64,000 nucleotides of DNA from Streptomyces liangshanensis (GTDB lineage: Bacteria > Actinomycetota > Actinomycetes > Streptomycetales > Streptomycetaceae), in NCBI RefSeq assembly GCF_011694815.1, contig NZ_CP050177.1:5248001-5312000 (forward strand). Reading direction: 5' to 3'. The notes under the pieces were generated by a model. That model had not been told where the DNA came from. It saw nothing but the letters and a program-made list of their open reading frames with translations, and made no database searches. This document shows, piece by piece, positions 5,765 to 28,065 of this stretch (within the stretch, counting starts at the first letter, position 1; each line of letters begins with the position of its first letter). A program made the translations under genes and the position numbers.

Positions 5765-5776
5765 GTTTTCGTCCAG

Positions 5777-5792: not shown

Positions 5793-5815
5793 ACGTCTGT
5801 CTAGAATGATTTCCC

Positions 5816-6514: not shown

Positions 6515-6529
6515 CGGCACAATGGGCTT

Positions 6530-7309: not shown

Positions 7310-7356
7310 GCCGGGGGAGGGGCGCCGGGCGCGGTCCTCCTCAGGAAGACGCGCGC

Positions 7357-8241
7357 TCAGTCACGCGGCGTGCGGATCAGGCCCTCCTGGATCACCGAGA
7401 TCGCCAGGGCGCCGTCGCGGGTGTAGATCCGGGCCTGCCCCAGCCCCCGGCCGCCGGACGACGACGGCGACTCCTGGTCGTACAGCAGCCACTCGTCCGC
7501 GCGGAACGGGCGGTGGAACCACATCGCGTGGTCCAGGCTCGCGCCCACCACGTCCCCGACCGCCCAGCCGCCCCGCCCGTGGGCCAGCAGGATCGAGTCG
7601 AGCAGGGTCATGTCGGAGACGTACGTGGCCAGGCAGACGTGCAGCAGCGGGTCGTCGGAGAGCTTCCCGGCCGTACGGAACCACACCTGCGAGCGCGGCT
7701 CGCGCGGGGCGCCCACGGAGCCGTACGGAGGCGCGTCCACGTACCGCAGGTCGACCGCCCCCCGCGCCACCAGCAGCCGGTCCACGACGCTCGGGTCGAC
7801 GAACCGGTCCGCGTACCGCGGCAGCATCTCGGCGGCCGTCGGGAGCGTCTCCGGGTCCGGCGCGTCCGGCATCCGCGCCTGGTGCTCCAAGCCCTCCTCG
7901 GCCAGCTGGAAGGAGGCCGAGAGGTGGAAGATCGGCTGCCCGTGCTGGACGGCGACGACCCGGCGCGTGGTGAAGGAGCGCCCGTCCCTGATGCGGTCGA
8001 CGTTGTAGACGATAGGCGCGCCGGGGTCGCCGGGGCGCAGGAAGTACGCGTGCAGGGAGTGGGCGCCGCGGTCCTCGGGGACGGTACGGCCCGCCGCCAC
8101 CAGCGCCTGGGCGGCCACCTGGCCGCCGAAGACGCGGGGGACGACGGCCGACCGGCTCACCCCGCGGAAGATGTCCCGCTCGATCCGCTCCAGGTCGAGC
8201 AGATCGAGCAGGTCCTCCAGAGCGCCGGGCTCCTCACTCAT
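7357..8241 (-). CDS. tesB: Acyl-CoA thioesterase II
   Basis: A 294-residue double-hotdog thioesterase that hydrolyses acyl-CoA to free acid and CoA. The N-terminal hotdog shows VFGGQVAAQALVAAGRTV and HSLHAYFLRPGDP. The C-terminal hotdog holds SDMTLLDSILLAHG, whose Asp matches the catalytic Asp of E. coli TesB, and VIQEGLIR with the conserved Gln. The length is normal for the family. It lies 31 bp downstream of an acyl-CoA dehydrogenase on the same strand, so the pair probably forms an operon. AGGAC seven bases before the ATG at 8241 supports that start. Confidence 0.93.
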   Translation of the reverse strand: MSEEPGALEDLLDLLDLERIERDIFRGVSRSAVVPRVFGGQVAAQALVAAGRTVPEDRGAHSLHAYFLRPGDPGAPIVYNVDRIRDGRSFTTRRVVAVQHGQPIFHLSASFQLAEEGLEHQARMPDAPDPETLPTAAEMLPRYADRFVDPSVVDRLLVARGAVDLRYVDAPPYGSVGAPREPRSQVWFRTAGKLSDDPLLHVCLATYVSDMTLLDSILLAHGRGGWAVGDVVGASLDHAMWFHRPFRADEWLLYDQESPSSSGGRGLGQARIYTRDGALAISVIQEGLIRTPRD

Positions 8242-8272
8242 GGGACGTGTCCTGGGGACTCATGAGCCCTCT

Positions 8273-9496: not shown

Positions 9497-9504
9497 GTCC
9501 GTTC

Positions 9505-9517
9505 CTAAGCGCTTGCT
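9505..9517. promoter_or_regulatory. Candidate TetR-type operator at the acyl-CoA dehydrogenase start
   Basis: CTAAGCGCTTGCT has the perfect 8-bp palindromic core AAGCGCTT and an outer AGC arm on one side only. It lies 9 bp upstream of the acyl-CoA dehydrogenase ATG at 9496. Such AGCAAGCGCTTGCT-like dyads are common TetR-family sites in front of fatty-acid genes; the cognate regulator is not identifiable from this window. Confidence 0.4.
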
Positions 9518-9663
9518 CAATTTAAGTTACCGGGGGGTTCGCGAGGGTGTCCAGGGCGGTCGGGCGCAACGCGCTCCGGGCCCGCGTGAGCCGTGTCACC
9601 ACCCGGCCTGCTTAAGTGGGTGATAGGAGACATTCCACATCAGAGCGACCGAAAAGGACGTCC

Positions 9664-10224
9664 ATGCTGAAGATCGCCGTCATCATCGGCAGCACCCGCC
9701 CCAACCGCGTCGGCGAGATCGTCGGGAAGTGGGTGATGGAGGTCGCGAACAAGCGCAGCGACGCCGCGTTCACCCTCATCGACCTCGCGGAGGTCGGGCT
9801 GCCCCTGCTGGACGAGGGCGCGCCCCCGGCCGTCGCCCAGTACGCCCAGCAGCACACCAAGGACTGGGCCGCGACGATCGCGGGCTTCGACGCGTTCGTC
9901 TTCGTCACCCCCGAGTACAACCACTCGGTCCCCGCCGGGCTGAAGAACGCCCTCGACTTCCTGTACGCCGAGTGGAACAACAAGGTCGCGGGATTCGTGA
10001 GTTACGGCGCCGCCGGCGGGATCCGCGCCGTCGAGCACCTGCGGCTGGCCCTCGCCGAGCTCCAGGTCGCGACGGTCCGCGCGCAGGTCGCCCTCGACTC
10101 GTACGCGGACTTCGAGAACTACTACGTCCTCAAGCCGTCGCCCCGCCGCGAGGAGGCCCTCAACACGGTCCTCGACCAGGTGATCGCCTGGGGCGGCGCG
10201 CTCAAGCCGCTGCGGACGCCGTAG
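9664..10224 (+). CDS. NAD(P)H-dependent FMN reductase / azoreductase-like flavoprotein
   Basis: A 186-residue flavodoxin-like protein of the NADPH-dependent FMN reductase family. The N-terminal phosphate-binding loop is [14 protein letters not shown], and the flavin/active-site segment is [27 protein letters not shown], followed by [15 protein letters not shown]. These are family hallmarks for a cytosolic NAD(P)H:flavin or quinone/azo-compound reductase. The ATG at 9664 is chosen because AAGGAC lies six bases upstream and the beta strand then begins at residue 2; a longer frame upstream lacks such support. Confidence 0.9.
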
Positions 10225-10321
10225 TCCGCTCCGGATTGCGTGGTCCGTCCTTAGGAGGCGGTGCCGGTCGCTTGGTACGGTCGGCCGGCACCCCCCGATC
10301 GTACGAAGAAAGGCATTTCGG

Positions 10322-11308
10322 ATGAGCAGCACCGAGCAGCCGCGCGGCCCCGTCGACTCGTCCCGCATCCCGCGGTACGCCGGGCCCGCCACGTTCGCCC
10401 GGCTGCCGCGGCTCGACGAGGTGGGCGGCCGGGCCGACGTCGCCGTCGTCGGCGTGCCCTTCGACTCCGGGGTCTCCTACCGCCCCGGCGCCCGCTTCGG
10501 CGGCAACGCCATCCGCGAGGCCTCCCGGCTCCTGCGCCCCTACAACCCCGCGCAGGACGCCTCACCGTTCGCGCTCGCGCAGGTCGCCGACGCCGGCGAC
10601 ATCGCCGCGAACCCCTTCCACATCGACGAGGCCGTGGACACGATCGAGGCGGCGGCCGACGACCTGCTCGGGACCGGCGCCCGGCTGATGACGCTCGGCG
10701 GCGACCACACCATCGCCCTGCCGCTGCTGCGGGCCGTCGCCAGGAAGCACGGGCCCGTCGCGCTGCTCCACTTCGACGCCCACCTCGACACCTGGGACAC
10801 GTACTTCGGCGCCGCCTACACCCACGGCACCCCGTTCCGCCGCGCGGTCGAGGAGGGCATCCTCGACACGGAGGCGCTCTCCCACGTCGGCACCCGCGGC
10901 CCCCTGTACGGCAAGAAGGACCTGGACGACGACACCAAGATGGGCTTCGGGATCGTCACCTCGGCCGACGTCATGCGGCGCGGCGTCGACGAGATCACCG
11001 ACCAGCTGCGGCAGCGCGTCGGGGACCGCCCGCTCTACATCTCCGTGGACATCGACGTGCTGGACCCGGCGCACGCCCCCGGCACCGGCACCCCCGAGGC
11101 CGGCGGGCTCACCTCCCGCGAACTGCTGGAGATCGTGCGCGGGCTCGCCTCCTGCCGGCTGGTCTCCGCGGACGTCGTGGAGGTCGCGCCCGCGTACGAC
11201 CACGCCGAGATCACGTCCGTCGCCGCCTCGCACACGGCGTACGAATTGACGACGATCATGTCCCGCCAGATCGCGGAGGCCCGCGACCCGGGCGCGGGCG
11301 CGCTCTGA
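10322..11308 (+). CDS. speB: Agmatinase (arginase/ureohydrolase family)
   Basis: A 328-residue ureohydrolase. The binuclear Mn site is complete: [23 protein letters not shown] and [18 protein letters not shown], and the end of the last motif continues TPEAGGLT. Agmatinases convert agmatine to putrescine and urea; related guanidinobutyrases and guanidinopropionases share these motifs, so the substrate is not certain. Its TGA overlaps the ATG of the following thiamine-diphosphate enzyme by one base (TGATG), so the two are translationally coupled and may act on successive intermediates of arginine-derived guanidino compounds. Confidence 0.88.
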
Positions 11309-14192: not shown

Positions 14193-14299
14193 ATTTCTCT
14201 GTTCGAAGGCCGGCGGATTGTTGCGGAGGGATGAAATCCGCGACCGCGCGCGTTGGGCACTCCGGCAGATCAGGTCGGTCGGCCGAACGGGAGGCATCA

Positions 14300-17200
14300 G
14301 TGGCGGCGGCAGTGGCGGCGGAGCGGAGCTGGGCACGGCGGCTCACCGGATACGCGTGGCGGTACCGCCGCAACGTGGTCCTGGCCCTGGGATCGTCGCT
14401 CCTCGGCATGGCCGTGATGGCCTTCGTCCCGCTGATCACCAAGGTCGTCATCGACGACGTCATCGGCGGCGGCCACCGCTCCCTCGGCGTCTGGACCGGC
14501 CTGCTGATCCTGGCCGCGCTCCTCGTCTACGTCTCCGCCTACGTACGGCGCTTCTACGGAGGGCGCCTCGCGCTCGACGTCCAGCACGACCTCCGTACGG
14601 AGATGTACGCCACGATCTCCCGGCTCGACGGGCGGCGGCAGGACAAGCTCTCCACCGGCCAGGTCATCGGCCGCGCCACCAGCGACCTCCAGCTCATCCA
14701 GGGCCTGCTCTTCATGCTGCCGATGACCATCGGCAACGTCCTGCTGTTCCTGATCTCCCTCGGGATCATGGCCTGGCTCTCGCTGCCCCTCACCTTCATC
14801 GCCCTCGCCGTCGCCCCCGCCATCTGGTTCATCGCCCGCCGCAGCCGCACCCGCCTCCACCCCGCCACCTGGTACGCCCAGGCCCAGGCCGCCGCCGTCG
14901 CCGGGGTCGTGGACGGCGCAGTCTCCGGCGTCCGGGTCGTCAAGGGCTTCGGGCAGGAGGACCAGGAGACCGGCAAGCTCCGCGAGGTCGGCCGCAAGCT
15001 CTTCGCCGGCCGCCTCCGTACGATCCGCCTCAACGCCCGCTACACCCCCGCCCTCCAGGCCGTCCCCGCCCTCGGGCAGGTCGCGATGCTCGCCTTCGGC
15101 GGCTGGCTCGCCACCCGGGGACAGATCACCCTCGGCACCTTCGTCGCCTTCTCCACGTACCTCGCCCAGCTCGTCGGCCCCGTCCGGATGCTCGCCGTCG
15201 TCCTGACCATCGGCCAGCAGGCCCGCGCCGGTGTGGAACGCGTCCTGGAGCTCATCGACACCGAGCCCACGATGGAGGACGGCACCAAGGAGCTGCCGGC
15301 GGACGCCGAGGCCTCCGTCGAGTTCGACGACGTGTCCTTCTCGTACGACGACGGCAGGACCGTCCTCGACGGCTTCTCGCTGGAGATGAGCCCCGGCGAG
15401 ACCGTCGCCGTCGTCGGCTCCTCCGGCAGCGGCAAGTCCACGCTCTCGCTGCTCGTCCCGCGCTTCTACGACGTGAACCACGGCGCGGTCCTCGTCGGCG
15501 GCCACGACGTCCGCGAGCTGACCTTCCACTCCCTGCGCGCCGCCATCGGGCTCGTCCCCGAGGACAGCTTCCTGTTCTCCGACACCGTCCGCGCCAACGT
15601 CGCGTACGGGAAGCCCGACGCCACCGACGAGGAGATCTTCCGGGCCACCCGCGCCGCCCAGGCCCACGACTTCATCTCCGACCTGCCCAACGGATACGAC
15701 ACCAAGGTGGGGGAGCAGGGCCTCACCCTCTCCGGCGGCCAGCGCCAGCGCGTCGCCCTCGCGCGCGCGATCCTCACCGACCCCCGGCTGCTGCTCCTGG
15801 ACGACGCGACCTCCGCCGTCGACGCCCGCGTCGAGCACGAGATCCACGAGGCGCTGCGCGGCGTGATGGCCGGGCGTACGACCCTCCTCATCGCCCACCG
15901 CCGCTCCACCCTGAACCTCGCCGACCGGATCGCCGTGCTGGACGGCGGCCGGCTCGCCGACGTCGGCACGCACGACGAGCTCCAGCGGCGCTCCGCCCTC
16001 TACCGGAAGCTGCTCACCGACCCGGACGAGTTGGGCGAGGTCTCCCCGGGGCACGTGCCCGTCCCCGCGGCGGAGGTGCCCGAGGACCGCTCCGTACAGG
16101 AGGAGATCGACGCCGAGTTCGACGCGGAGCGCGGCATCACGCCCGCCCTGTGGGAACGCGACGAGATCGCCGAGGAGTCCGCCGCCCCCGGCGCGACCCC
16201 CGAACTCCTCGCGCAGGTCGAGGCGTTGCCGCCGGCCACCGACCTCCCGGAGATCGACGAGGCGCGCGCGGTGGCCGCCGAGGAGTCGTACGGACTGCGC
16301 AGGCTGCTGCGTGGCTTCGGGCTGCCGCTGCTGGTCAGCCTCTCGCTCGTCGCGGTCGACGCGGCGATGAGCCTGGCCCTGCCCGTCCTCATCCGGCACG
16401 GCATCGACCAGGGCGTCGAGCGCCTGGCCCTCGGCGCGGTGTGGGTCGCCGCCGGCCTCGGCCTGCTGGTCGTCGCCGTCCAGTGGCTCGCGCAGATCGG
16501 CGAGACGCGCAAGACCGGGCGTACCGGTGAACGGGTCCTCTACTCCCTGCGGTTGAAGATCTTCGCCCAGCTCCAGCGGCTCGGACTCGACTACTACGAG
16601 CGCGAGTTGACCGGCCGGATCATGACCAGGATGACCACGGACGTGGACGCGCTGTCCACGTTCCTCCAGACCGGGCTGGTCACCGCGTTCGTCTCCGTCG
16701 TCACCTTCTTCGGCATCCTCGTCGTGCTCCTCGCGATCGACCTGGAGCTGGCGTTGGTGGTCTTCGCGACCCTGCCGGTCCTGTTCGTCGCCACGGTCTT
16801 CTTCCGGCGCAAGAGCGTGAAGGCGTACGAACTGGCCCGTGAGCGCATCAGCGCCGTCAACGCCGACCTCCAGGAGTCCGTCTCCGGGCTCCGGATCGTC
16901 CAGGCGTTCCGGCGCGAGCAGGACGGCGCCGAGCGCTTCGCCGCCCGCAGCGACCACTACCGCGAGGCCCGGGTGCGCGGGCAGTGGCTGATCTCGGTGT
17001 ACTTCCCGTTCGTCCAGCTGCTGTCGTCCGTCGCGGCGGCGGCCGTGCTGATCGTCGGCGCGGGGCGGGTGGAGGCCGGCACGCTGACGACCGGCGCGCT
17101 GGTCGCGTACCTCCTCTACATCGACCTGTTCTTCGCCCCCGTCCAGCAGCTCTCCCAGGTCTTCGACGGCTACCAGCAGGCGAGCGTCTCGCTGGGCCGC

Positions 17201-18040
17201 ATCCAGGAGCTGCTGCGGGAGCCCACCACGACGGCGGCGTCCGAGGCACCGCTCGACGTGCTGTCGCTGCGCGGCGAGATCGCGTTCGAGGACGTGAGCT
17301 TCGCGTACACCGACGAGAGCGGTGAACTGGCCGACGAGGCCGCCCTGATGGGGGTCGACCTGCGGATCCCGGCGGGCCAGACCGTCGCGTTCGTCGGCGA
17401 GACCGGCGCGGGCAAGTCGACGCTGGTGAAGCTGGTCGCGCGGTTCTACGACCCGACGGGCGGCCGGGTCACGGCGGACGGTACGGACCTGCGCGACCTG
17501 GACCTGACGGCGTACCGCCACCGGCTCGGCGTGGTCCCGCAGGAGGCGTACCTCTTCGCGGGGACGATCCGCGACGCGATCGCGTACGGCCGCCCCGAGG
17601 CGACCGACGCGCAGGTGGAGGCGGCGGCCCGGGCGGTCGGCGCCCACGAGATGATCGCCACGCTGGAGGGCGGTTACGTGCACGAGGTGGCCGAGCGCGG
17701 CCGTAACCTCTCCGCGGGCCAGCGCCAGCTGATCGCCCTCGCGCGTGCCGAACTGGTCGACCCCGACGTCCTGTTGCTGGACGAGGCGACGGCGGCGCTG
17801 GACCTGGCGAGCGAGGCGCTGGTCAACCAGGCCACCGACCGCCTCACCGGCCGCCGTACGACGCTGGTGGTCGCCCACCGGCTGACCACCGCGGCCCGCG
17901 CGGACCGGGTGGTCGTGATGGACCACGGGCAGGTGGTGGAGGACGGCACGCACGGCGAACTGCTCGCGCTGAACGGCCGGTACGCCAAGCTGTGGCGCAG
18001 CTTCATCGGCGAGGAGGAGGAGACGGCGGCGGTGGTGTGA
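14300..18040 (+). CDS. Fused heterodimeric-type ABC exporter (TMD-NBD-TMD-NBD)
   Basis: A 1,246-residue single-chain exporter equivalent to two half-transporters. TMD1 is followed by NBD1 (Walker [10 protein letters not shown] near residue 372, signature [16 protein letters not shown], Walker [13 protein letters not shown]), an acidic linker of about 100 residues, TMD2, and NBD2 (Walker [10 protein letters not shown], signature [16 protein letters not shown], Walker [13 protein letters not shown]). NBD1 has Asp where the catalytic Glu should be and NBD2 has LSAGQ, both belonging to the same composite site, so one ATP site should be degenerate. The GTG at 14300 is chosen because GGGAGG lies five bases upstream; the in-frame ATG at 14231 has a Shine-Dalgarno too close to use. 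The substrate is unknown; drug or lipid efflux is plausible. Confidence 0.93.
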
Positions 18041-18115
18041 GGCGGCGGTGGTGTGACGCGGCGGCCCGCGAGGGCCATGGCCTCGCCGGTCCGCCGGGAG
18101 CTCACCGGCCCGTGA

Positions 18116-18523
18116 TCAGCAAAGGATCCACCCGGTCGACGCCGACTTGCCGGCGATGGCCCCGGACGCCCGTACGCACCGGTTCAGCGCGTGGACGGTC
18201 ACCGGCCCCGCGTGCTGCGTGAAGTCCCCGCTGTCCACCACCGGGCCGGCGCCGCGCGCCTGGAGGCTCACCCGCATCGCCCGCCTGGCACCGGGGTGGT
18301 CGGCGACGGTGAGCGCGCACGCGTACCCCCGCGACTTGTAGATCCGCAGCTCACCGCTGTCGAAGGGCACCGTCTTCTGCGGCTGCCCCGAGCACACCGA
18401 GAGCGCCTCGGCGCGGGCCGCGGCGGGACCGGCCAGAGCGAGCGCCGCCAGCGCGACCACGGCTGTCAGCGCCGCGAGACAGCGCGGCAGCGCGCCCTTT
18501 CCATAACCGGTCCCAGCGAACAC
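18116..18523 (-). CDS. Small secreted protein with four cysteines, function unknown
   Basis: A 135-residue protein with a hydrophobic export signal (CLAALTAVVALAALALAGPAAARAE) and a mature part of ~95 residues with four Cys (VCSG, ACAL, RCVR and the final residue), enough for two disulfides. No known domain was recognised; the pattern suggests a small all-beta extracellular protein. The GTG at 18523 is preferred because AGGGG sits five bases upstream; an in-frame ATG at 18553 would add ten residues. It is convergent with the ABC exporter (75-bp gap) and divergent from the S37 peptidase. Confidence 0.65.
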   Translation of the reverse strand: MFAGTGYGKGALPRCLAALTAVVALAALALAGPAAARAEALSVCSGQPQKTVPFDSGELRIYKSRGYACALTVADHPGARRAMRVSLQARGAGPVVDSGDFTQHAGPVTVHALNRCVRASGAIAGKSASTGWILC

Positions 18524-18711
18524 GCATGCCCCTGTCGTCAGTCGGGTGTACATGCGTACGACGCGCGAGGGCCCGGGAAGGTTGCGTCCGCGTTGTCGTC
18601 GGCGGGAGCGGCGGCGGGTGCCGCGGCGGGGGAGGCGGGGCCGGCGGGGCTGGCGGTGCGGGATGAGCACCGCTAGGTTCACCAGGTCTGTCATGAACAC
18701 AAGGAGAGTGC

Positions 18712-20172
18712 ATGCGCAAGACGCTGAGATGGCTGTTGTCGCTGTCGCTGATCATAGGGACGGTGGCAACGGCGGGTGCGGCCACCGCCGCGGACCAGAA
18801 GTCCCCGAGCGGTACGGCCGTCGCGGACACCAAGGACGCCTCGGACACCACCGACATCAAGGACCGTGTCCTGGCGATCCCCGGGATGAGCCTGATCCAG
18901 GAGAAGCCGTACGCGGGTTACCGCTACTTCGTCCTCAACTACACCCAGCCGGTGGACCACCGGCACCCGTCCAAGGGCACTTTCCAGCAGCGCATCACGC
19001 TGCTGCACAAGGACACCAGCCGTCCCACGGTCTTCTTCACCGGCGGCTACAACGTCTCCACCAACCCGAGCCGCAGTGAGCCGACGCGCATCGTCGACGG
19101 CAACCAGGTCTCGATGGAGTACCGCTTCTTCACCCCGTCGCGCCCGCAGCCGGCCGACTGGACGAAGCTGGACATCTGGCAGGCGGCCAGCGACCAGCAC
19201 CGCATCTTCACGGCGTTGAAGAAGATCTACACCAAGAACTGGCTCTCCACGGGCGGTTCGAAGGGCGGCATGACCGCCACCTACTTCGAGCGGTACTACC
19301 CGCGCGACATGGACGGCGTCGTCGCGTACGTCGCGCCCAACGACGTGGTGAACAAGGAGGATTCGGCCTACGACCGGTTCTTCGAGAAGGTCGGCACCAA
19401 GGAGTGCCGCGACAAGCTCAACGCCGTGCAGCGCCAGGCGCTGATCCGGCGGGAGCCGCTGGAGAAGACGTACGCGGAGTGGGCGGCGGCCAACGGCGCC
19501 ACCTTCACGACCGTCGGCTCGCTCGACAAGGCCTACGAGGCCGTCGTCATGGACTTCGTCTGGGCGTTCTGGCAGTACAGCCTGCTGGCGGACTGCGAGA
19601 GCATCCCCGCGGCCACCGCCTCCGACCAGGAGATCTACGACGTCATCGACGCGATCTCCGGCTTCTCCGCCTACACGGACCAGGGCCTCGCGACGTACAC
19701 GCCGTACTACTACCAGGCCGGTACGCAGCTGGGCTCGCCGGACATCAAGCAGCCGCACCTGGGCAAGCTCAGCCGGTACGGCTACCAGCCGCCGCGCAAC
19801 TTCGTGCCGCGCGACATCGCGATGAAGTTCGACCCGCGCGTGATGCCGGACGTCGACAACTGGGTCCAGCACCACGCGGACCGGATGCTCTTCGTGTACG
19901 GGCAGAACGACCCGTGGGGCGCCGAGCAGTTCCGCGTGGGCCGGGGTGCGCGTGACAGCTTCGTGTACGTCGCGCCGGGCGCCAACCACGGCGCCAACGT
20001 GGCCGCCCTGAGCCCCGAGCAGTCGGCGAAGGCCACGGCCAGGATCCTCGACTGGGCGGGCGTCGCGCCGGCGGCCGTACAGCAGGACGCGGCGAAGGCG
20101 AAGCCGCTCGCGCCGTTCGACGCGAAGCTCGACCACCAGAAGGTCGACCGCCGCCAGGCGCTGCGGCCGTAA
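18712..20172 (+). CDS. Secreted S37 (PS-10) family tripeptidyl aminopeptidase
   Basis: A 486-residue secreted peptidase. A signal peptide (LRWLLSLSLIIGTVATAGA) precedes the mature protein. The alpha/beta-hydrolase catalytic triad is visible: nucleophile Ser in LSTGGSKGGMTATYF, Asp in FVYGQNDPWGAEQF and His in APGANHGANVA. This matches the S37 family, which in Streptomyces removes tri- or tetrapeptides from secreted proteins, for example in processing transglutaminase and protease inhibitors. AAGGAG five bases before the ATG at 18712 supports the start. A bidirectional hairpin separates it from the convergent LysR gene. Confidence 0.92.
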   Translation: MRKTLRWLLSLSLIIGTVATAGAATAADQKSPSGTAVADTKDASDTTDIKDRVLAIPGMSLIQEKPYAGYRYFVLNYTQPVDHRHPSKGTFQQRITLLHKDTSRPTVFFTGGYNVSTNPSRSEPTRIVDGNQVSMEYRFFTPSRPQPADWTKLDIWQAASDQHRIFTALKKIYTKNWLSTGGSKGGMTATYFERYYPRDMDGVVAYVAPNDVVNKEDSAYDRFFEKVGTKECRDKLNAVQRQALIRREPLEKTYAEWAAANGATFTTVGSLDKAYEAVVMDFVWAFWQYSLLADCESIPAATASDQEIYDVIDAISGFSAYTDQGLATYTPYYYQAGTQLGSPDIKQPHLGKLSRYGYQPPRNFVPRDIAMKFDPRVMPDVDNWVQHHADRMLFVYGQNDPWGAEQFRVGRGARDSFVYVAPGANHGANVAALSPEQSAKATARILDWAGVAPAAVQQDAAKAKPLAPFDAKLDHQKVDRRQALRP

Positions 20173-20178
20173 GCCCCC

Positions 20179-20214
20179 TCCGCCGGGCCGCCCTTGAGGG
20201 GGCCGCCCGGCGGA
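20179..20214. terminator. Bidirectional terminator between convergent genes
   Basis: Arms TCCGCCGGGC (20179-20188) and GCCCGGCGGA (20205-20214) are perfectly complementary, and the intervening CGCCC-TTGA-GGGGG extends the stem. It sits 6 bp after the S37 peptidase stop and 3 bp before the LysR stop. Confidence 0.75.
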
Positions 20215-20217
20215 CCG

Positions 20218-21144
20218 CTACCCCTCGGCCGAGCCCGGCACGGCGGCCACCTCGGGCCAGTGGCGCCGCAGCGCGGCCACGGTGGCGGTGACGGCGGGCC
20301 GCCGCGCCGCCCCGGCCCGCCACAGGGCGTACAGCCGGCGCGAGGGTACGGGATCGAGCGCCTTGGCCCGTACGCCCGGGGGCAGCGGGCCGCGCCCCAG
20401 CCGGGGAACCATCGCGACGCCCAACCCGGCGGCCACCAGGGCGATCTGGGTGTGGTTCTCCTCGGCCTGGTGGGCGAGCTCGGGCTCGCAGCCGGCGGCG
20501 CGCAGGGTGCGTACGAGCCAGTCGTGGCAGACCGTGCCGGGCGGCTGGCAGATCCACCTGAGCCCGCGCAGATCCGCCCGGCGGACGACGGCCCGCGCGG
20601 CGAGCGGGTGCCCGTCCGGCACGAGCAGATCGCACAGGTCGTCACCGATGACGGCCCGCTCCACCCCCTCGGGGGTGGGCAGCCGGGCGATGTCCCAGTC
20701 GTGGGTGACGGCGAGGTCGATCAGGCCGCGGGCCACGAGGTCGGAGGACAGGTGCGGGTCGATCTCCCGCAGCCGGACGTCCAGGGTGGGGTGGAGCAGG
20801 GCGAGTTCGGCGAGCGCGGGAGGCAGCAGCCCGCGGGCGGAGGAGGCGAACGCCGCGACGACGAGCTGCCCGGTGGGCTGCCCCCGCCGCTCCTCCAGCG
20901 TGGTCTCGGCCCGCTCGACGATGGCGAACAACTCCTCGGCGGTGGCGGCGAGATGCCGCGCCTCGTCGGTGAGCACAACACCGCGCCCGCGCCGTTCGAG
21001 GAGTGTGGTACGGGTCTCCCGCTCCAGCTTGGTGATCTGCTGGGAGACGGCGGAGGGGCTGTACCCGAGGGCGGAGGCGGCAGCACCGACGGAACCATGC
21101 ACGGACACGGCATGGAGGGCGCGGAGGCGGGCTAGGTCGAGGAT
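20218..21144 (-). CDS. LysR-family transcriptional regulator, apparently starting with ATC
   Basis: A complete LysR protein of 308 residues: winged HTH (LDLARLRALHAVSVHGSVGAAASALGYSPSAVSQQITKLE; about residues 2-60) and a periplasmic-binding-protein-like effector domain ending at VPGSAEG. The expected first codon, aligned with the usual M-L-D-L-x-R-L-R start of such proteins, reads ATC at 21144-21142, with GAGGG seven bases upstream. No ATG, GTG or TTG occurs in frame between it and position 21315, which lies inside a neighbouring repeat. Either translation starts at ATC, or it starts inside the repeat and adds 57 residues, or the start has been damaged. The inner GTGs would delete part of the HTH. 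Target genes are unknown. Confidence 0.8.
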   Translation of the reverse strand: MLDLARLRALHAVSVHGSVGAAASALGYSPSAVSQQITKLERETRTTLLERRGRGVVLTDEARHLAATAEELFAIVERAETTLEERRGQPTGQLVVAAFASSARGLLPPALAELALLHPTLDVRLREIDPHLSSDLVARGLIDLAVTHDWDIARLPTPEGVERAVIGDDLCDLLVPDGHPLAARAVVRRADLRGLRWICQPPGTVCHDWLVRTLRAAGCEPELAHQAEENHTQIALVAAGLGVAMVPRLGRGPLPPGVRAKALDPVPSRRLYALWRAGAARRPAVTATVAALRRHWPEVAAVPGSAEG

Positions 21145-21186
21145 GGCGTTTCCCTCGGTGGGTGGGTGGCTGAGCTTGGGCTGGAT

Positions 21187-21541
21187 GTGCGGGTTCAGAC
21201 GAAGACGTAGTCGGGGTCGGCGTTCTTGTGTTGTTTGACGTGGGGGCCGCCCCTTGCTGTTGAGTGTCGCGGTTTCGGGTCGGGCGTCAAGGGCGCTCCT
21301 TCGTCGCGTCGGCAAGCCGATGACCTTCGGTCACCCTTGACTCCCGCCCCGAAACCGCAAGTGAAGGCGAGGGGGGGGCGGCCCGGGGAGGGGTCCCCCG
21401 GGACACTCCGGGGGCGGTTGCGGCTTGCTCCCGGGCTGCGGCTCCGGTTGGGGGTTTGCGCACCACTTGAATGGGGCGGCAGGCCCCGGCTTGGCGGCTA
21501 GCCGGCCGTCCGTTGGCGGGTGCGCAAGCACCGTGTCTGAG
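21187..21541 (-). repeat. Left copy of a ~355-bp inverted repeat
   Basis: Read on the minus strand, this segment is homologous to 22622-22975 over its whole length. It runs from CTCAGACACGGTGCTTG at the inner end to CTGAACCC.CAC at the outer end. Bases 21235-21367 are identical to 22795-22927 (133 bp), while the inner half is clearly diverged. Its outer end lies 43 bp from the LysR ATC codon. It contains a long imperfect hairpin (21269-21358). Confidence 0.95.
21269..21358. repeat. Cloverleaf-like hairpin inside left repeat
   Basis: Two 25-nt arms with two mismatches enclose a 40-nt loop that itself contains TGACC-GAA-GGTCA and TCGGC-TT-GCCGA hairpins. It is the exact inverted copy of 22804-22893. 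Confidence 0.85.
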
Positions 21542-21635
21542 ATCCGTGGTCAGCTGCGGGGTGGCGTGGCCTTGTGTCCTGCGGTGCGTTGGGCGGTTCT
21601 GGGAGGACACATTCGCTTGTTTCGCGCCTGTTGGG

Positions 21636-22451
21636 CTACTGGGTGGGGAGTGGGCCGGTGATGTTGGTGATCCAGGGGCGGTATGCGGCGACCCGGGTGA
21701 AGACGTCGGGGTAGGCCGAGGCGCAGCCCTGTCCGTAGGAGATGATGCCTACGAGGTTCGTTTTGTTGTTGGCCAGCTGTTGTGCGAGGGGGCCGCCGGT
21801 GTCGTGCTGGCAGGGGCCCTTGTCGGGGGTGTGAGTGCACAACTGCTGACTGCCGTCCACGGTGCCGTAGTAGGCATTGCACTGGCTCGTGGTGATGACG
21901 CCGACCTGTGCGCGCTGGAGTTGGGTCGGCTGCTGGCCTCCGTAGGAGAGAGTGCCCCAGCCCATGGCCACGGCGGTTTGGCCTGCGTAGGCGTTGGGCT
22001 GGGTGTTCGCGTCCACCAGGGCCGGGCGCACTCCGACGTTCAGGGTTGCCTTCTTGGCGAGCTGAACGACGGCAATGTCGTTGCGGCTGGTGGTGGGTGT
22101 GTAGGACGGGTGGATGATCCATCGTCCGACCGCATAGAGCGCGGCGAAGTTGGTGTCGGAACCGCTCGCGGTGTCGCGATCACCGAGAAGGACAGCGGTG
22201 GTGCCCGTTGCCTTTCCCCGTACGCAGGATGCGGCCGTCAGTACGTACGTGTCGCTGATCAGCGTCGCCCCGCAGAAGACCTGCCCGGAGTTCGTATCGA
22301 CGAGACCGGCCATGCTGTGCGCGATCGGGGCCGTGGGGCTGTTGCTCACGGCGGTGCCTCCGACGATCGCCTGAGCCGGGGCAATCCCCGGGCCAACCAC
22401 CGCCACCGCAGCGGCCGACACCGCAACCACAAGCTTCCTTAACCACTTCAT
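21636..22451 (-). CDS. Secreted trypsin-like (S1) protein with substituted catalytic residues: probable pseudoprotease
   Basis: A 271-residue exported protein. The signal peptide (MKWLRKLVVAVSAAAVAVV... AQA) is followed at once by IVGGT, the mature N terminus of chymotrypsin-fold proteins. The fold is recognisable throughout (FCGATLISDTYVLTAASC, SRNDIAVVQL, MGWGTLSYGG, GPCQHDTGGPL, GIISYGQGC, YRPWI). The codon for catalytic His57 is TCC, giving TAASC for TAAHC, and the codon for Ser195 is ACC, giving HDTGGP for GDSGGP; only Asp102 is kept. Codon 4 is TTA (22442-22440), a bldA-type codon, and third-position GC is visibly lower than in neighbours. AAAGG six bases upstream supports the ATG at 22451. 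The gene lies between two large inverted repeats. Confidence 0.88.
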   Translation of the reverse strand: MKWLRKLVVAVSAAAVAVVGPGIAPAQAIVGGTAVSNSPTAPIAHSMAGLVDTNSGQVFCGATLISDTYVLTAASCVRGKATGTTAVLLGDRDTASGSDTNFAALYAVGRWIIHPSYTPTTSRNDIAVVQLAKKATLNVGVRPALVDANTQPNAYAGQTAVAMGWGTLSYGGQQPTQLQRAQVGVITTSQCNAYYGTVDGSQQLCTHTPDKGPCQHDTGGPLAQQLANNKTNLVGIISYGQGCASAYPDVFTRVAAYRPWITNITGPLPTQ

Positions 22452-22621
22452 GGGGGACCTTTCGGAGAAGGGCTCGACAGACACCGTCACTGCCGCAGTT
22501 CCCTCCTGCCGGCCTTCCTCAACCATGGGTCTTGTGTGTGGTGTTCCGTTAGTGCGTACCGAGGACCCGTCACCGGCCGGAAGGGGGCGAACTGCCCGCC
22601 CTTCCCCTTCCACCCACCCAG

Positions 22622-22975
22622 CTCAGACACGGTGCTTGTACGCCCGCAGGCAGACGGCCTTCCAGCCGCTGAGCCGAGTGGCACAGCCCCATTCAAGTGG
22701 TGCGCAAACCCCCGTCCGGAGCCGCAGCCCGGAAAGAGACCGCAACCGCTTCCCTACCGTCCCGGGGACCCCTCCCCCGGGCCGCCCCCCTCGGCCTTCA
22801 CTTGCGGTTTCGGGGCGGGAGTCAAGGGTGACCGAAGGTCATCGGCTTGCCGACGCGACGAAGGAGCGCCCTTGACGCCCGACCCGAAACCGCGACACTC
22901 AACAGCAAGGGGCGGCCCCCACGTCAACCAACACAACAACGCCGACCCCAACTACGTCCCCGCCTGAACCCCCAC
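22622..22975 (+). repeat. Right copy of the ~355-bp inverted repeat
   Basis: Inverted partner of 21187-21541, with a 133-bp stretch (22795-22927) of perfect identity. Open frames seen across it on either strand (for example one ending in the STARGGPHVNQHNNADPNYVPA region) have no ribosome site or family match and are treated as a by-product of the repeat. Its outer end extends into the 3' end of the downstream minus-strand gene, supplying that protein's last residues. Confidence 0.95.
22804..22893. repeat. Cloverleaf-like hairpin inside right repeat
   Basis: Arms 22804-22828 and 22869-22893 pair over 25 nt with two mismatches. The 40-nt loop holds TGACCGAAGGTCA, TCGGCTTGCCGA and a weak CGC...GCG pair, so three small hairpins could sit on one long stem. 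Confidence 0.85.
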
Positions 22976-23404
22976 CCCCACGTTCCACTCAGCCGGCAAC
23001 GCACCCCCGCAAAACACACAGAAGAAGTCGTCCTCCCGAACCACGTTGACCTCTCGGCAGTCCGGATCCGTGCCCCCGCCCTCACCCACGCAGCGGCGGA
23101 ACACCACCTCATGAGTGAACCCCCGCAAACGCACCACCCCAGCCCGATCCACCCCGGCCCGCTCCAACGCCGCTGCCACCCACTGCCAGGAGCTGACGTC
23201 CGGGCAATAGCCCGTCGACTGGTTGCTCACCTCGCCGACCACCCACCGGTCGTCCTCCCGCGCCAAGGACATCTCGCCGGCGCTCAGCACCGCCCCGCCG
23301 CCCGCGCAGGCCACGTGTTCGCTGGAGGAACGGATCTCCGTTCCCTCACCACCCGCCCGCACCGACGCGGCTCTGATGTCAACCGGGCCGACGTACTCGT
23401 ACAC
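22952..23404 (-). CDS. Conserved hypothetical protein with C-terminal zinc-ribbon-like cysteines
   Basis: A 150-residue cytosolic protein starting MYEYVGPVDIRAASV. GGAGG six bases before the GTG at 23404 favours that start over an upstream GTG at 23419. Recognisable blocks are DDRWVVGEVSNQSTGYCPDVSSWQ, then LRGFTHEVVFRRC, C-x9-C and CVFCGGALPAEWN, which together could bind one zinc. Similar proteins are, as I recall, widespread in Streptomyces without assigned function. The last residues after GALPAEWN are encoded by DNA that adjoins or belongs to the right inverted repeat, so the original C terminus may have been replaced. Confidence 0.65.
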   Translation of the reverse strand: MYEYVGPVDIRAASVRAGGEGTEIRSSSEHVACAGGGAVLSAGEMSLAREDDRWVVGEVSNQSTGYCPDVSSWQWVAAALERAGVDRAGVVRLRGFTHEVVFRRCVGEGGGTDPDCREVNVVREDDFFCVFCGGALPAEWNVGVGVQAGT

Positions 23405-23455
23405 GTACACCCTCCGCACACACCCCCTGCCCCCTACCCGCCTGCCCCCCTCCCC

Positions 23456-24244
23456 CTACGTCAGCCCCTCCAGATACCCCCGCCCCGCCTCCAACAGCCC
23501 CGGCAGCTCCGCTGCCTTCGGGTACCAGCGCTTCTCGTACTCCCAGCACACCCACCCGTCGTCCCCCTCGCCCGCCAGCAGCGCCACGCACTCCGCCAGC
23601 GGCAGCACCCCCGCGCCCAGGGCCAGCGGAGTGGTGTCCTCGGCCGACGCGATGTCCTTGACCTGTACGTATCCCAGGTACGGCGCCAGTACCGCATGCG
23701 ACGTGATCGGGTCCTCCCCGCCCAGCCAGGTGTGCATCACGTCCCACAACACCCCCACCTGCGGGTGCCCCACCGTCCCGACCACCCGCGCCGCGTCCAC
23801 GCCCGTACGGTGCGAGTCGTGGGTCTCCAGCAGGATCCGTACGCCGAAGTCGGCGGCCACCTCCGCCGCCGCGCCCAGCCGCCGCGCGGCCGTCGCGTCG
23901 GCCTCCGCGGGGTCCCCGTCCCCGCCGCCGGGGAAGACGCGGATGTTCGCGGCGCCCAGGTCCCGGGCGAGCCGGAGGAGGTCGTCGAGTTCCTGGCGTA
24001 CGGCGTCCTCGTCGGTGGTCGTGTCGGCGACCCGTACGTACCCGGCCAGGGTCAGGATCTCGACGCCCGCCCGCTTGAAGTCGTCGACCACCGAGGCGCG
24101 TTCGGCCTCTCCGATGCCGGGGTGGACGGGCTCCTCCGGGTGGGCACGCAGCTCCACGCCCTGGTAGCCGGTGGCGGTGGCGAGTCCGACGACCTCGGGG
24201 ACGGGCAGCCCCGGCACTCCGAGGGTGGAGAAGGCGAACTTCAC
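23456..24244 (-). CDS. Sugar phosphate isomerase/epimerase (xylose-isomerase-like TIM barrel)
   Basis: A 262-residue AP-endonuclease-2-type TIM barrel. Divalent-metal ligands typical of the family are visible in GVELRAHPEEPVHPG, RILLETHDSHRTG, GVLWDVMHTWLGGEDP and YVQVKDIASAED, ending with WVCWEYEKRWYP. Such proteins act as sugar or cyclitol isomerases, epimerases or dehydratases. The GTG at 24244 is chosen for AAGGA six bases upstream. It lies downstream of, and on the same strand as, the LacI regulator and is probably part of the same sugar-catabolic locus as the divergent oxidoreductase operon. The substrate is unknown. Confidence 0.85.
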   Translation of the reverse strand: MKFAFSTLGVPGLPVPEVVGLATATGYQGVELRAHPEEPVHPGIGEAERASVVDDFKRAGVEILTLAGYVRVADTTTDEDAVRQELDDLLRLARDLGAANIRVFPGGGDGDPAEADATAARRLGAAAEVAADFGVRILLETHDSHRTGVDAARVVGTVGHPQVGVLWDVMHTWLGGEDPITSHAVLAPYLGYVQVKDIASAEDTTPLALGAGVLPLAECVALLAGEGDDGWVCWEYEKRWYPKAAELPGLLEAGRGYLEGLT

Positions 24245-24389
24245 GATGGTTCCTTTCCGAACGAGACTCCGAGCAAGACTGCGCACAGGGCATTCCCGGG
24301 CATCAAGCCATCCCACCCCAGTACCCCGTCACCCCCGGGCACACCCCCCACCCGCCCCGGGCACACCCCCACCCGCCCCAGGCCACCCC

Positions 24390-25559
24390 TCACCCCCTCC
24401 CCCCGGAGGGACCCCCCACCCGAGCCGCCCCCGTGGACCCCCGCACCATCAGCTCCGCCCCGATCGTCGCGATCCCGCCCGGCGGCGGCGCCTCCGTGCC
24501 CATCGCCAGCCGCCCCGCCCGCGCCCCCGCCTCGTACAGCGGCAGCCGTACCGTCGTCAGCGCGGGCATCGCGTCCACCGAGAACGGCAGGTCGTCGAAG
24601 CCCGCCACCGAGATGTCCTCCGGGATGCGCAACCCCTGGTCCCGGACCGCCGCGCACGCCCCCAGCGCCACCGTGTCGTTCGCGCCGATCACCGCGGTCA
24701 GGTCCGGCGCCCGGCGCAGCAGCTCCAGCGTCGCTTCGTACCCCGACCGCCGCGTGTACGCGCCGTGCACGGTCAGCACCTCCAGATCACCGAAACCCTC
24801 CCCACCAGCTCCACCAGCTCCACCAGCTCCACCCGCACCTCCCACTCCACCAGCCCCACCAGCCACCAACCCCTCCAACGCCCCGAACCCCTCCAACGCC
24901 CCCCGGTGCCCCTCCAGCCGATGCCGCGTAGTCGTCCGTTCCGCCGGCCCCGCCACGTACCCGATCTTCCGGTGTCCCAGCGCCAGCAGGTGTTCCGTCA
25001 GCCGCCGCCCACCCCCGCGGTTGTCGAACGCCAGCGCCGCCACTATCGCCTCGCTGTCCGGCAGCGGCGGCCGCCCGCACAGCACCACACGCGTGCCCGC
25101 GTCGGCGAGTTTCGACAGTTTCGTGGCCATCGCGGCGATATGGTCCGGGTCTTCGAGGGCCCCGCCCGTCAGGATCACGGCCGCCGCCCGCTGGCGCTGG
25201 AGGAGAGTCAGATAGGTCAGTTCGCGTTCCGGCGAGCCCCCCGTGTTGCACACGACGGCCAGCTTCTCGCCGCCCCCGCGCCCCGTCCCCTCCTGGCCGC
25301 CGATCTCCGTCTGGGCCGCCCCGGCCATGATCCCGAAGAAGGGGTCGGCGATGTCGTTGACGAGGATGCCGACCAGGTCGGACGTGGCGGCGGCGAGCGA
25401 GCTGGCCGGGCCGTTCAGTACGTAGTCCAGCTCGTCCACCGCCCGCAGCACCCGCTCCCGGGTGGTCGCGGCGACCGGGTAGTTGCCGTTCAGCACGCGC
25501 GACACGGTGGCGGGCGACACCCGCGCGCGGGCCGCCACATCCGCCAGGGTGACTGTCAT
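24390..25559 (-). CDS. LacI-family transcriptional regulator with low-complexity glycine insert
   Basis: A 389-residue LacI/GalR regulator. The N-terminal HTH and hinge (TLADVAARARVSPATVSRVL) and the sugar-binding core (VGILVNDIADPFFGIMAG ... TAVIGANDTVALGACAAV ... DISVAGFDDLPFSVDAMPAL) are intact. The protein is longer than the usual ~340 residues because a Gly/Ala tract (VAGGAGGVGGAGGAGGAGG) is inserted between the two core halves, encoded by tandem 9-bp units. GGAGG precedes the ATG at 25559 by six bases. A GAAAGCGCTTGC operator lies in the divergent promoter region, so it probably controls itself and the oxidoreductase-DUF993-isomerase operon in response to a sugar derivative. Confidence 0.92.
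   Translation of the reverse strand: MTVTLADVAARARVSPATVSRVLNGNYPVAATTRERVLRAVDELDYVLNGPASSLAAATSDLVGILVNDIADPFFGIMAGAAQTEIGGQEGTGRGGGEKLAVVCNTGGSPERELTYLTLLQRQRAAAVILTGGALEDPDHIAAMATKLSKLADAGTRVVLCGRPPLPDSEAIVAALAFDNRGGGRRLTEHLLALGHRKIGYVAGPAERTTTRHRLEGHRGALEGFGALEGLVAGGAGGVGGAGGAGGAGGAGGEGFGDLEVLTVHGAYTRRSGYEATLELLRRAPDLTAVIGANDTVALGACAAVRDQGLRIPEDISVAGFDDLPFSVDAMPALTTVRLPLYEAGARAGRLAMGTEAPPPGGIATIGAELMVRGSTGAARVGGPSGGRG
24800..24905. repeat. Minisatellite inside the LacI gene
   Basis: Three perfect CCACCAGCT units (24802-24828) are followed by degenerate CCACC-containing units and two copies of CCCTCCAACGCCCC. They encode the Gly/Ala linker of the regulator in frame, so copy-number change by 9 bp would keep the reading frame. 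Confidence 0.8.
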
Positions 25560-25712
25560 CGCTTTCCTCCGAGGAGTACGAGGGTGGGTACGGAGCCGGG
25601 CGCCAGGCAAGCGCCGCGCAAGCCCCAGGCCGAGCGCCCACGGGACCACGACCGAAGATCCCGGCCCAGCTCTTGTCCGTCCCGGAATCGCAGGCTAGCT
25701 TCATACCCTATA

Positions 25713-25724
25713 GAAAGCGCTTGC
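25713..25724. promoter_or_regulatory. LacI-family operator
   Basis: GAAAGCGCTTGC matches the LacI/GalR-type consensus GnAAGCGCTTnC with its central CG. It lies 24 bp before the oxidoreductase GTG and 154 bp upstream of the divergent LacI gene. Confidence 0.75.
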
Positions 25725-25747
25725 TACGGCCGTATGGAGGGAACTTC

Positions 25748-26899
25748 GTGACACGCAGGACAGTGCGGATCGCCATGAACGGCGTCACGGGGCGGATGGG
25801 GTACCGGCAGCACCTGCTGCGCTCCGTCCTCGCGATCCGCGAAGAGGGCGGACTCGATCTGGGCGGCGGCGAGGTGCTCTGGCCGGAGCCGGTCCTCGTC
25901 GGGCGCCGCGAACACGCCCTGAAGGAGATCGCGGAACGCCACGGTCTCACCGAGTGGTCGACGGACCTCGACGCCGTCCTCGCGGACGACACGATCTCCC
26001 TGTACTTCGACGCGCAGGTCACCTCGGCCCGGGTCGAGGCGATCAAGAAGGCCATCGCGGCCGGCAAGCACATCTACACGGAGAAGCCGACCGCCGCCGA
26101 TCTCGCCGGCGCCCTCGACCTGGCCAGGCTCGCCCGGAGCGCCGGGATCAAGCACGGCGTCGTCCAGGACAAGATCTTCCTGCCGGGCCTGCTCAAGCTC
26201 AAGCGCCTCATCGACGGCGGCTTCTTCGGCCAGATCCTGTCCGTACGGGGGGAGTTCGGCTACTGGGTCTTCGAGGGCGACTGGCAGGACCCCCAGCGCC
26301 CCTCCTGGAACTACCGCGCCGAGGACGGCGGCGGCATCACCGTCGACATGTTCCCGCACTGGGAGTACGTCCTCCACGAGCTCTTCGGCCGCGTCACCAC
26401 CGTCCAGGCCCACATCACCACCCACATCCCCGAGCGCTGGGACGAGCGCGGCAAGCCGTACGCCGCGACCGCCGACGACGCCGCGTACGGCATCTTCCAG
26501 CTGGAGGGCGGCGTGGTCGCGCAGATCAACTCGGCCTGGTCGGTACGGGTCAACCGCGACGAGCTGGTCGAGTTCCAGGTCGACGGCACCCACGGCTCGG
26601 CGGTCGCCGGGCTGCGCCGCTGCCGCGTGCAGCACCGCAGCGCCACGCCCAAGCCGGTGTGGAACCCGGACCTCCCCGTCACCGAGTCCTTCCGCGACCA
26701 GTGGCAAGAGGTCCCGGACAACGGAGAGTTCGGCAACGGCTTCAAGGCGCAGTGGGAACTGTTCCTGCGCCACCTCGCGCTCGACGAGCCGTACCGCTGG
26801 GACCTCCTCGCGGGCGCGCGCGGGGTGCAACTCGCCGAGCTGGGGCTGCGGTCCTCGGCCGAGGGTCGCCGCTTCGACGTACCGGAGCTGAGCCTGTGA
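25748..26899 (+). CDS. Gfo/Idh/MocA-family NAD(P)-dependent oxidoreductase
   Basis: A 383-residue oxidoreductase with an N-terminal Rossmann fold (RIAMNGVTGRMGYRQHLLRSV) and the family EKP motif (GKHIYTEKPTAADL), followed by the C-terminal alpha/beta domain with GGGITVDMFPHWEYVLHELFG. These enzymes oxidise sugars, cyclitols or their keto-derivatives. The GTG at 25748 is chosen because GGAGGG lies six bases upstream. It is the first gene of a three-gene operon; its TGA overlaps the GTG of the DUF993 gene. Expression is probably repressed by the divergent LacI protein. Confidence 0.9.
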   Translation: MTRRTVRIAMNGVTGRMGYRQHLLRSVLAIREEGGLDLGGGEVLWPEPVLVGRREHALKEIAERHGLTEWSTDLDAVLADDTISLYFDAQVTSARVEAIKKAIAAGKHIYTEKPTAADLAGALDLARLARSAGIKHGVVQDKIFLPGLLKLKRLIDGGFFGQILSVRGEFGYWVFEGDWQDPQRPSWNYRAEDGGGITVDMFPHWEYVLHELFGRVTTVQAHITTHIPERWDERGKPYAATADDAAYGIFQLEGGVVAQINSAWSVRVNRDELVEFQVDGTHGSAVAGLRRCRVQHRSATPKPVWNPDLPVTESFRDQWQEVPDNGEFGNGFKAQWELFLRHLALDEPYRWDLLAGARGVQLAELGLRSSAEGRRFDVPELSL

Positions 26900-28065
26900 C
26901 CCTCCGACTGCCCTCACCCGGCGGTGAGTTGCGTACGTACACACCGCGCGCCGAACCGGCCCCCTTCCTCGCCGCGCCACCCCGTCCCGTCCCTCTCACC
27001 TCCCGTACGGTCCTCTCGGCGGCGCACGTCGTCGCCGACCCCTACGCCGACACCAGCCCCGACGCGCCCGCCGCCGTCGACTGGGACGCCACCCTCGCCT
27101 TCCGCCGCCACCTCTGGTCGCACGGCCTCGGCGTCGCGGAGGCCATGGACACCGCGCAGCGCGGCATGGGCCTGGACTGGGCCGGCGCCGCCGAGCTGAT
27201 CCGGCGCTCCGCCGCCGAGGCGAAGGCGGTCGGGGGCCGGATCGCCTGCGGGGTCGGCACCGACCAACTGCCGCCCGGTACGCACACCTTGGGCGAGGTC
27301 AGGGCCGCGTACGAGGAGCAGCTCGCACTGGTCGAGGAGACCGGTTCGCAGGCCATTCTCATGGCGTCGCGCGCGCTCGCGGCGGCCGCGGCCGGCCCCG
27401 AGGACTACCTCGACGTCTACGCGCACCTGCTGCGCCAGGCCGCCGAGCCCGTCGTACTGCACTGGCTCGGACCGATGTTCGACCCCGCACTCGACGGCTA
27501 CTGGGGCAGCGCCGACCTCGACACCGCGACCGAGACGTTCCTCCAGGTCATCGCCGCGCATCCCGACAAGGTCGACGGCATCAAGGTCTCCCTGCTGGAC
27601 GCCCGGCGGGAGGTCGAGCTGCGCCGCAGGCTGCCCCGGGGCGTCCGCTGCTACACGGGCGACGACTTCAACTACCCCGAGCTGATCGCCGGTGACGAAC
27701 AGGGCTTCAGCCACGCCCTGTTGGGGATCTTCGACCCGCTGGGACCGGTGGCGGCCGAGGCGGTACGGGTGCTGGACACCGGTGACACGAAGGGGTTCCG
27801 CGAACTGCTCGACCCCACGGTGGAGTTGTCCCGCCACCTGTTCCGGGCGCCGACCCGCTTCTACAAGACCGGCGTGGTGTTCCTGGCCTGGCTGGCGGGC
27901 CACCAGGACCACTTCGCGATGGTCGGCGGACTCCAGTCGGCGCGCTCGCTGCCGCATCTGGCGCGGGCGTACGAACTGGCCGACGGGCTGGGCCTGTTCC
28001 CGGACCCGAAGGCGGCGGAGGCCCGGATGGGGTCGCTGCTCGACGTGTACGGAGTGAGCCGGTGA
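26896..28065 (+). CDS. DUF993 family protein (DHDPS-like TIM barrel)
   Basis: A 389-residue protein of the DUF993 type, distantly related to dihydrodipicolinate synthase-like aldolases: KVDGIKVSLLDARREVELRR could contain the Schiff-base lysine, and YTGDDFNYPELIAGDEQGFSHALLGIFDPL is a conserved block. It is coupled by GTGA overlaps to the oxidoreductase before it and the isomerase after it, so the three should be made together and act on the same sugar-derived substrate. A retro-aldol cleavage step is a reasonable inference; nothing in the sequence fixes the substrate. Confidence 0.8.
   Translation: MTLRLPSPGGELRTYTPRAEPAPFLAAPPRPVPLTSRTVLSAAHVVADPYADTSPDAPAAVDWDATLAFRRHLWSHGLGVAEAMDTAQRGMGLDWAGAAELIRRSAAEAKAVGGRIACGVGTDQLPPGTHTLGEVRAAYEEQLALVEETGSQAILMASRALAAAAAGPEDYLDVYAHLLRQAAEPVVLHWLGPMFDPALDGYWGSADLDTATETFLQVIAAHPDKVDGIKVSLLDARREVELRRRLPRGVRCYTGDDFNYPELIAGDEQGFSHALLGIFDPLGPVAAEAVRVLDTGDTKGFRELLDPTVELSRHLFRAPTRFYKTGVVFLAWLAGHQDHFAMVGGLQSARSLPHLARAYELADGLGLFPDPKAAEARMGSLLDVYGVSR

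Follow-up and report, generated by a model that had tools for sequence, protein, structure and literature searches.

The window analyzed here, a stretch of 64,000 nucleotides from the Streptomyces liangshanensis genome, contains a trypsin-family gene enclosed by two inverted arms (Table 1). Alignment of 21187-21541 with 22622-22975 showed 87.6% identity over 356 columns, and an exact check showed that 21235-21367 is the reverse complement of 22795-22927 over 133 bp. The inverted arms, their mismatch-free core and a single enclosed gene with a TTA codon had been claimed in an earlier, sequence-only reading of this DNA, and all three were borne out; TTA is codon 4 of the gene at 21636-22451 (minus strand), whose third-position GC is 0.84. 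The similarity of the arms is far above chance, as the other 15 arms in the same genome are 85 to 90% identical to the left arm. An Rfam search of 20000-24200 found no match.

Table 1. Parts of the element in the window
Feature	Position	Strand	Remark
Left arm, terminal inverted repeat	21181..21541	+	terminus ..GTGCGGGTTCAGACG
Left cloverleaf core, predicted stem with three small hairpins	21265..21363	+	model R1, 98 bits
A-type inner end, common to other elements	21530..21564	+	
Passenger gene, trypsin family, 271 aa	21636..22451	-	sole gene recognized between the arms
B-type inner end, common to other elements	22501..22633	-	81-83% to L034, L038 and L032
Right arm	22622..22981	-	holds TAG stop (22952-22954) of neighboring ORF 22952-23419 (-)
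Right cloverleaf core	22799..22897	-	identical to left core

The sequence-only reading had suggested a copy-number search, and the S. liangshanensis genome (7.72 Mb, one contig) was queried with the left arm of the window. We found 16 full or nearly full arms, which form 8 inverted pairs at separate places, each in the order '+' then '-' and with 477 to 1209 bp between the two arms. Each element has one A-type and one B-type inner end; in L038, the A end is displaced. Five of the interiors (L032 and L034 to L037) have non-coding repeats of one kind in common, and the L035 interior shares 93% identity with that of L037, which lies elsewhere in the chromosome. Genes are held by two interiors, the window element (L031) and L038 (DUF3224 and RibD_C genes), while the interior of L033 resembles the others at its ends only and has no assigned gene. 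The arms look like mosaics of one another. A partial, diverged solo arm was also seen at 4375548-4375799, with no partner found and a complete pair 5 kb away.

The perfect half of the repeat beside a diverged half had been taken to imply recent gene conversion. However, the mean core identity was 94.6% between elements and 94.0% within elements, and three arms from other elements differ from the window core at one position. The 133-bp core is thus perfect because the core is conserved throughout the family, and recent conversion is not needed to explain it. In the outermost 48 bp, the similarity was 0.76 within elements and 0.65 between elements, and some exchange at the arm tips is possible.

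A possible phase-variation switch was also proposed, in which the arms would recombine and thereby invert the segment with the trypsin-like gene. An identical 133-bp stretch in inverted orientation would suit such a switch, and inversions between IS terminal repeats are reported in bacteria (PMC3004938). However, the cassette includes the region upstream of the passenger gene, at least five of the eight copies in the genome have no gene to flip, and the core identity is family-wide. A Pfam search of the eight flanking ORFs in 14231-27957 found no recombinase; three had no family, and the families found were ABC transporter, S37 peptidase, LysR, TIM-barrel isomerase-like and LacI type. We therefore regard a switch as very improbable, while passive inversion by homologous recombination between the arms is possible.

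Each arm contains an imperfect palindrome of about 150 bp, whose nearly invariant apex is predicted to fold into three small hairpins atop a long stem. An alignment of 35 cores from this and other genomes showed that the apex is almost invariant and the stem variable, and in other Streptomyces genomes the arm similarity is mostly limited to about 80 to 150 bp. In the 35 core rows, 156 cells were altered on both sides of the stem and none on one side only. We also aligned 119 hairpins (105 of them distinct) from 68 chosen loci with a model; this alignment, A3, was fitted to the structure and is thereby biased in its favor. In A3, 84.8% of cells were paired, with 450 double-changed cells compared with 166 in shuffles, and the covariation was 0.274 compared with 0.082 in shuffled and at most 0.086 in slid versions. 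Further pair types showed no excess (41 versus 44.4 in shuffles), as was also the case for pair types in the 35-core alignment, and no excess was counted for pairs with double changes (19 versus 17.0, with 9 of 500 shuffles reaching 19).

The two strands of the stem differ in their mismatches. Over 17 stem pairs (1785 cells, 76% Watson-Crick), the strand with its 3' end pointing outward had 70 G.T, 200 G.A and 124 G.G mismatches, while the opposite strand had 3, 4 and 1, respectively. In the apices, C-GNA-G triloops were found 358 times on the outward-3' strand and never on the other; the count covers the GNA kind only, and the window's own loop, CAAG, falls outside it. The outward-3' strand also folded better in 104 of 105 hairpins with DNA parameters and in 99 of 105 with RNA parameters. 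The compensated stem changes, together with the strand-biased mismatches and loops, indicated that the folded strand is the one with its 3' end pointing outward. Since GNA triloops, like G.A pairs, are characteristic of stable hairpins in DNA, the sequences would favor single-stranded DNA over RNA as the folded form. Templated repair of quasi-palindromes could be the source of part of the strand bias.

The sequence-only reading had also called for a search of other Streptomyces genomes. An exact search with the apex pattern AAGGGCGC-N(20-50)-CACCCTTGA gave at least one match in 113 of the 392 Streptomyces genomes sampled, including 39 with 4 or more, and no match in the remaining 279. Since the control pattern, read backward, matched 12 of the 392 genomes once each, some of the single apex matches are due to chance. 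In a class-wide sample, 26 of 394 genomes matched; some belong to other families and have recognizable apices, while others are chance matches. In viral contigs, 116 stretches fitted the pattern and 80 became loci, among which L427 alone looked real by eye and scored 50 bits by model. The window arm had no match in phage records and one weak match, in a single record, among plasmids. The arm of genome G379 matched nine plasmid records, and the six examined comprised two with clear single arms (NBC_00158 and NBC_01136) and four with weak ones (25 to 37 bits); no second arm was found within the stretches of these six records that were examined.

Pairing was analyzed in six genomes with at least 167 apices (for G405, the matches listed), with positions in the S. 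liangshanensis genome taken from model hits and G456, G476 and G134 lying outside the sample. Among the matches listed, neighboring apices within 5 kb were '+-' in 68 cases and '++' in 1, with no '-+' or '--'. Another 31 apices lacked a strict partner. When 20 of these were examined (19 from G431 and 1 from G486) with a covariance model, 18 had an opposite partner: 16 inside a 6-kb stretch, three of them weak (48 to 60 bits), and 2 that pair with each other at a distance of 9.8 kb. For the remaining two, no partner was found within about 14 kb upstream. A set of 86 pairs was chosen for further analysis because the two apices lay close, and it is therefore uninformative on the frequency of pairing. 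Their apex-to-apex span was 478 to 3744 bp (9.8 kb in the one further pair), and the arm identity within pairs was 75 to 99% in 85 of the 86, with no arms detected for L154.

The elements favor the 3' ends of genes. At the 86 pairs, genes were called by ORF length and codon-position GC, and the termini were set by alignment in 61 pairs and estimated from the apex in 25. A neighboring gene was predicted at 150 of the 172 element ends; 111 of these genes face the element with their 3' end and 39 with their 5' end, and the stop codon lies within 60 bp of the terminus for 58 of the 111. In the 67 fully called pairs, the flanking genes were convergent in 32, tandem in 34 and divergent in 1.

Element L034 of S. 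liangshanensis sits between nnrD (Pfam Carb_kinase/YjeF_N) and alr (alanine racemase). We compared this site with the nnrD-alr loci of other, named species, using up to about 9.5 kb per locus. The apex was absent, by regular expression and by model, from all 80 loci examined, the best 80 of 237 related ones; the best chance match scored 21 bits, compared with 66 to 105 bits for the arms. Element L034 was therefore either gained in the S. liangshanensis lineage or lost in all 80 species. A spacer of less than 140 bp with the same box before alr is retained in 13 of the 80 loci; the comparison was possible on one side only, and no exact empty site was obtained. At the window locus, no clean empty junction was found among eight relatives with a LysR match; three of them carry the isomerase gene close by, separated by a further gene. 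In L069, L072 and L073, a membrane-protein gene that looks EamA-like by eye lies between the LysR and isomerase-like genes. In the window (20218-24316), this EamA-like gene is missing, and the element and ORF 22952-23419 fill its place.

Flanking target duplications, which the sequence-only reading had proposed to look for, were not detected: a flank permutation test of 61 elements in six groups showed no excess at 15 or 40 bp, although the test rests on automatic termini and duplications under about 5 bp would be missed. The terminus of the G486 elements was cut inside conserved sequence, and their 15-bp window therefore says little. Direct repeats exceeded the expectation in G379 at 100 bp. 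Inverted similarity of the flanks was significant in G379 at all widths (some of its elements have longer ends) and in G006 at 15 bp (p 0.03). In L205, L215, L218 and L219, the inverted ends run about 44 to 105 bp past the terminus set automatically, and longer variants of the ends may therefore exist.

The hairpins may act at the RNA level, as terminators or 3'-end stabilizers selected at gene ends, with the pairing serving transcripts from both sides. Their stable folds and location would agree with this, an outward transcript of a passenger gene would have the more favorable fold at its 3' terminus, and REPs elsewhere share the location preference (PMC3733652). However, flanking genes enter the arm on its less stable strand, and G.A and G.G mismatches outnumber G.T. 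GNA triloops belong to DNA-type hairpins, the absence from nnrD-alr in 80 of 80 species and the lack of an Rfam match in 20000-24200 do not fit an RNA element, and the interiors and passengers are left unexplained. We consider an RNA-level role unlikely.

The passenger gene of the window matched PF00089 with an E value of 4.4e-44, and the start of its product resembles a signal peptide by eye. Alignments to two solved peptidases showed that the catalytic His is replaced by Ser (TAASC) and the catalytic Ser by Thr (HDTGGP). The same two residues are absent from all five close homologues (39 to 92% identity), indicating a small family of inactive homologues. The window passenger, judged by its residues, is a trypsin look-alike that has lost its catalytic His and Ser. 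Distant matches were found in 18 further genomes; at the 11 loci examined, ten had active motifs and one was unclear, and no apex was found within about 3.8 kb.

Interior genes were predicted in 18 of the 86 pairs. Repeats occurring singly and without cargo, together with one fixed orientation in long reads, had been named as findings that would refute the sequence-only reading. The repeats are mostly paired, yet 68 of the 86 pairs are geneless by our filter, which also misses the trypsin gene of the window. The interior genes encode HAD hydrolases, GNAT, NUDIX, CYTH, SnoaL and DUF3224 proteins, an aminoglycoside-adenylyltransferase-like domain, NmrA with an APH-family protein, two GntR regulators, a GDSL lipase with GGACT, MarR beside a weak polyketide-cyclase match, one transposase and unknowns. 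In G379, 10 of 11 pairs have interior genes, and 6 of the 11 (L129, L130, L216, L218, L219 and L221) encode a conserved protein of about 84 residues (..YVPHRLLRRRVRDIASG..) with no Pfam or NCBIfam family. It has 413 homologues and, by the names listed, several copies per genome in some species, which we take to be members of the S. lavendulae group. The best of five structural models was beta-rich with a pLDDT of 82 (others 53 to 72) and had no match at E<=0.001 among viral or PDB structures.

IS-type transposase genes of different families were seen inside L486, L495 and L489 of G431 and L220 of G379. L486 and L495 share the same 551-residue IS4-type transposase, L489 has an IS5-type enzyme, and L220, the one case among the 18 gene-bearing interiors, has an NF041680 (IS701-like) transposase flanked by its own 20-bp repeats. 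The elements behave as if they were tolerated landing sites for IS. In L503 of G431 (1244-11187), the apices are 9.8 kb apart and the arms about 90% identical; the DNA between them has a lower GC content and carries genes for phage capsid and small terminase proteins. L503 is a phage remnant or satellite within an element; as regards an autonomous copy, Pfam found no recombinase among the 10 ORFs scanned.

The family may be an ordinary MITE family of a DDE-type IS, with an autonomous parent that is lost or unsampled and palindromic ends that are transposase binding sites only. Inverted ends, many copies and the lack of a transposase of its own would agree with this, MITE parents are often missing, and few-base target duplications are compatible with the flank test. 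On the other side, no target duplication was seen in the six groups at 15 or 40 bp, and the transposases inside elements belong to three families; the gene examined is bounded by 20-bp ends of its own, and its family is absent from G006, which has 20 pairs. An ordinary MITE family is thus a doubtful explanation, though one of some weight. The resident NF041680 IS, whose family is present in 102 of 199 genomes, was rejected as the mover on account of its own 20-bp repeats in L220 and the absence of its family from G006. Spread by the host, through template switching or homologous recombination at the palindromes and with no dedicated enzyme, would agree with the mosaic-like arms and with the finding of no mobility gene. 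However, the termini recur within a genome, the '+-' arrangement is fixed, and inner ends A and B are distinct, so that host-driven spread seems quite improbable.

We consider it probable that the window element belongs to a family of non-autonomous mobile cassettes whose movement is driven in trans. That the repeats mark the ends of such a cassette was the second proposal of the sequence-only reading, and it is supported by the 8 dispersed pairs, the absence at the L034 site in 80 of 80 species and the passengers in other species. An enzyme supplied in trans probably moves the family, and we infer that it acts on the folded outward-3' strand. The enzyme, encoded elsewhere, would recognize the arms as folded single strands with the 3' end pointing outward and would insert the whole unit, mostly beside the 3' ends of genes. 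The inactive trypsin homologue and other passengers would take the place of the original interior and travel with the unit, and the constraint of recognition would preserve the core while the remainder of the element drifts.

A literature search, with a coverage lying mostly outside subscription journals, found no description of this Streptomyces element family, and the paired hairpin family is widespread in Streptomyces and apparently undescribed. Among described systems, inverted REP dimers come closest, although they differ in the size of the unit, the spacer, the cargo and the transposase. REP dimers (BIMEs and REPINs) are likewise dispersed inverted pairs of palindromes at favored convergent or tandem intergenic sites, and REPs have 20 to 40 bp, spacers of mostly 20 to 100 bp and a GTAG or CGTC tag (PMC3733652). 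In contrast, the palindromes here have about 150 bp, with arms often of 300 to 450 bp, apex-to-apex distances of 0.5 to 3.7 kb and sometimes genes. Unlike in the REP/RAYT system, no Y1 transposase (PF01797) was found in 17 of 25 apex-rich genomes (7 to 40 matches), and a Y1/RAYT transposase was rejected as the mover. These 17 include the six richest genomes tested, namely, S. liangshanensis, G006, G431, G456, G486 and G379; PF01797 was present in 8 of the 25 rich genomes and 4 of 25 zero-match genomes, both groups being chosen by hand.

Other known systems share some features with the family. MITEs and mobile insertion cassettes, the latter being passenger genes between IS ends, also have inverted ends, no transposase of their own and passenger genes, whereas here no target duplication was detected, no matching IS was found, and the ends are long structured palindromes. 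In integrons, a gene cassette couples a small accessory gene to an imperfect palindrome that folds, preferably on one strand. Accessory genes with a strand-preferring folded palindrome are found here too, but each unit has two inverted sites where an integron cassette has one, and the units are dispersed rather than arrayed in one orientation. Parvovirus-type terminal hairpins are inverted palindromic ends with small apical hairpins that fold better at 3' ends. The ends described here are similarly inverted, palindromic and tipped with hairpins, whereas their apex orientation is fixed, with no flip/flop (68 '+-', 1 '++' and no other).

The family may, more tentatively, represent a new class of gene cassette, a proposal that we hold with less than even confidence. 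A recombinase would read the inverted DNA cloverleaves as single strands and insert the units that they bound at the 3' ends of genes, with no duplication of the target; the units could thus acquire accessory genes and spread them across Streptomyces and other actinobacteria, and the multicopy 84-residue protein of one clade may be part of the system. To our knowledge, integrons are not known as gene-carrying elements in Streptomyces. If the proposal is true, the best-studied antibiotic producers would have one more kind of mobile element that carries genes, the strand-specific DNA structure would be a defined starting point for a recombinase hunt, and hairpins behind Streptomyces genes may be mobile DNA rather than terminators.

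Elsewhere in the window, 406-523 and 8696-8813 form a direct repeat of 71% identity, 8.3 kb apart, which possibly reflects paralogous genes, and a degenerate 9-bp tandem repeat (ACCAGCTCC) lies at 24786-24863.
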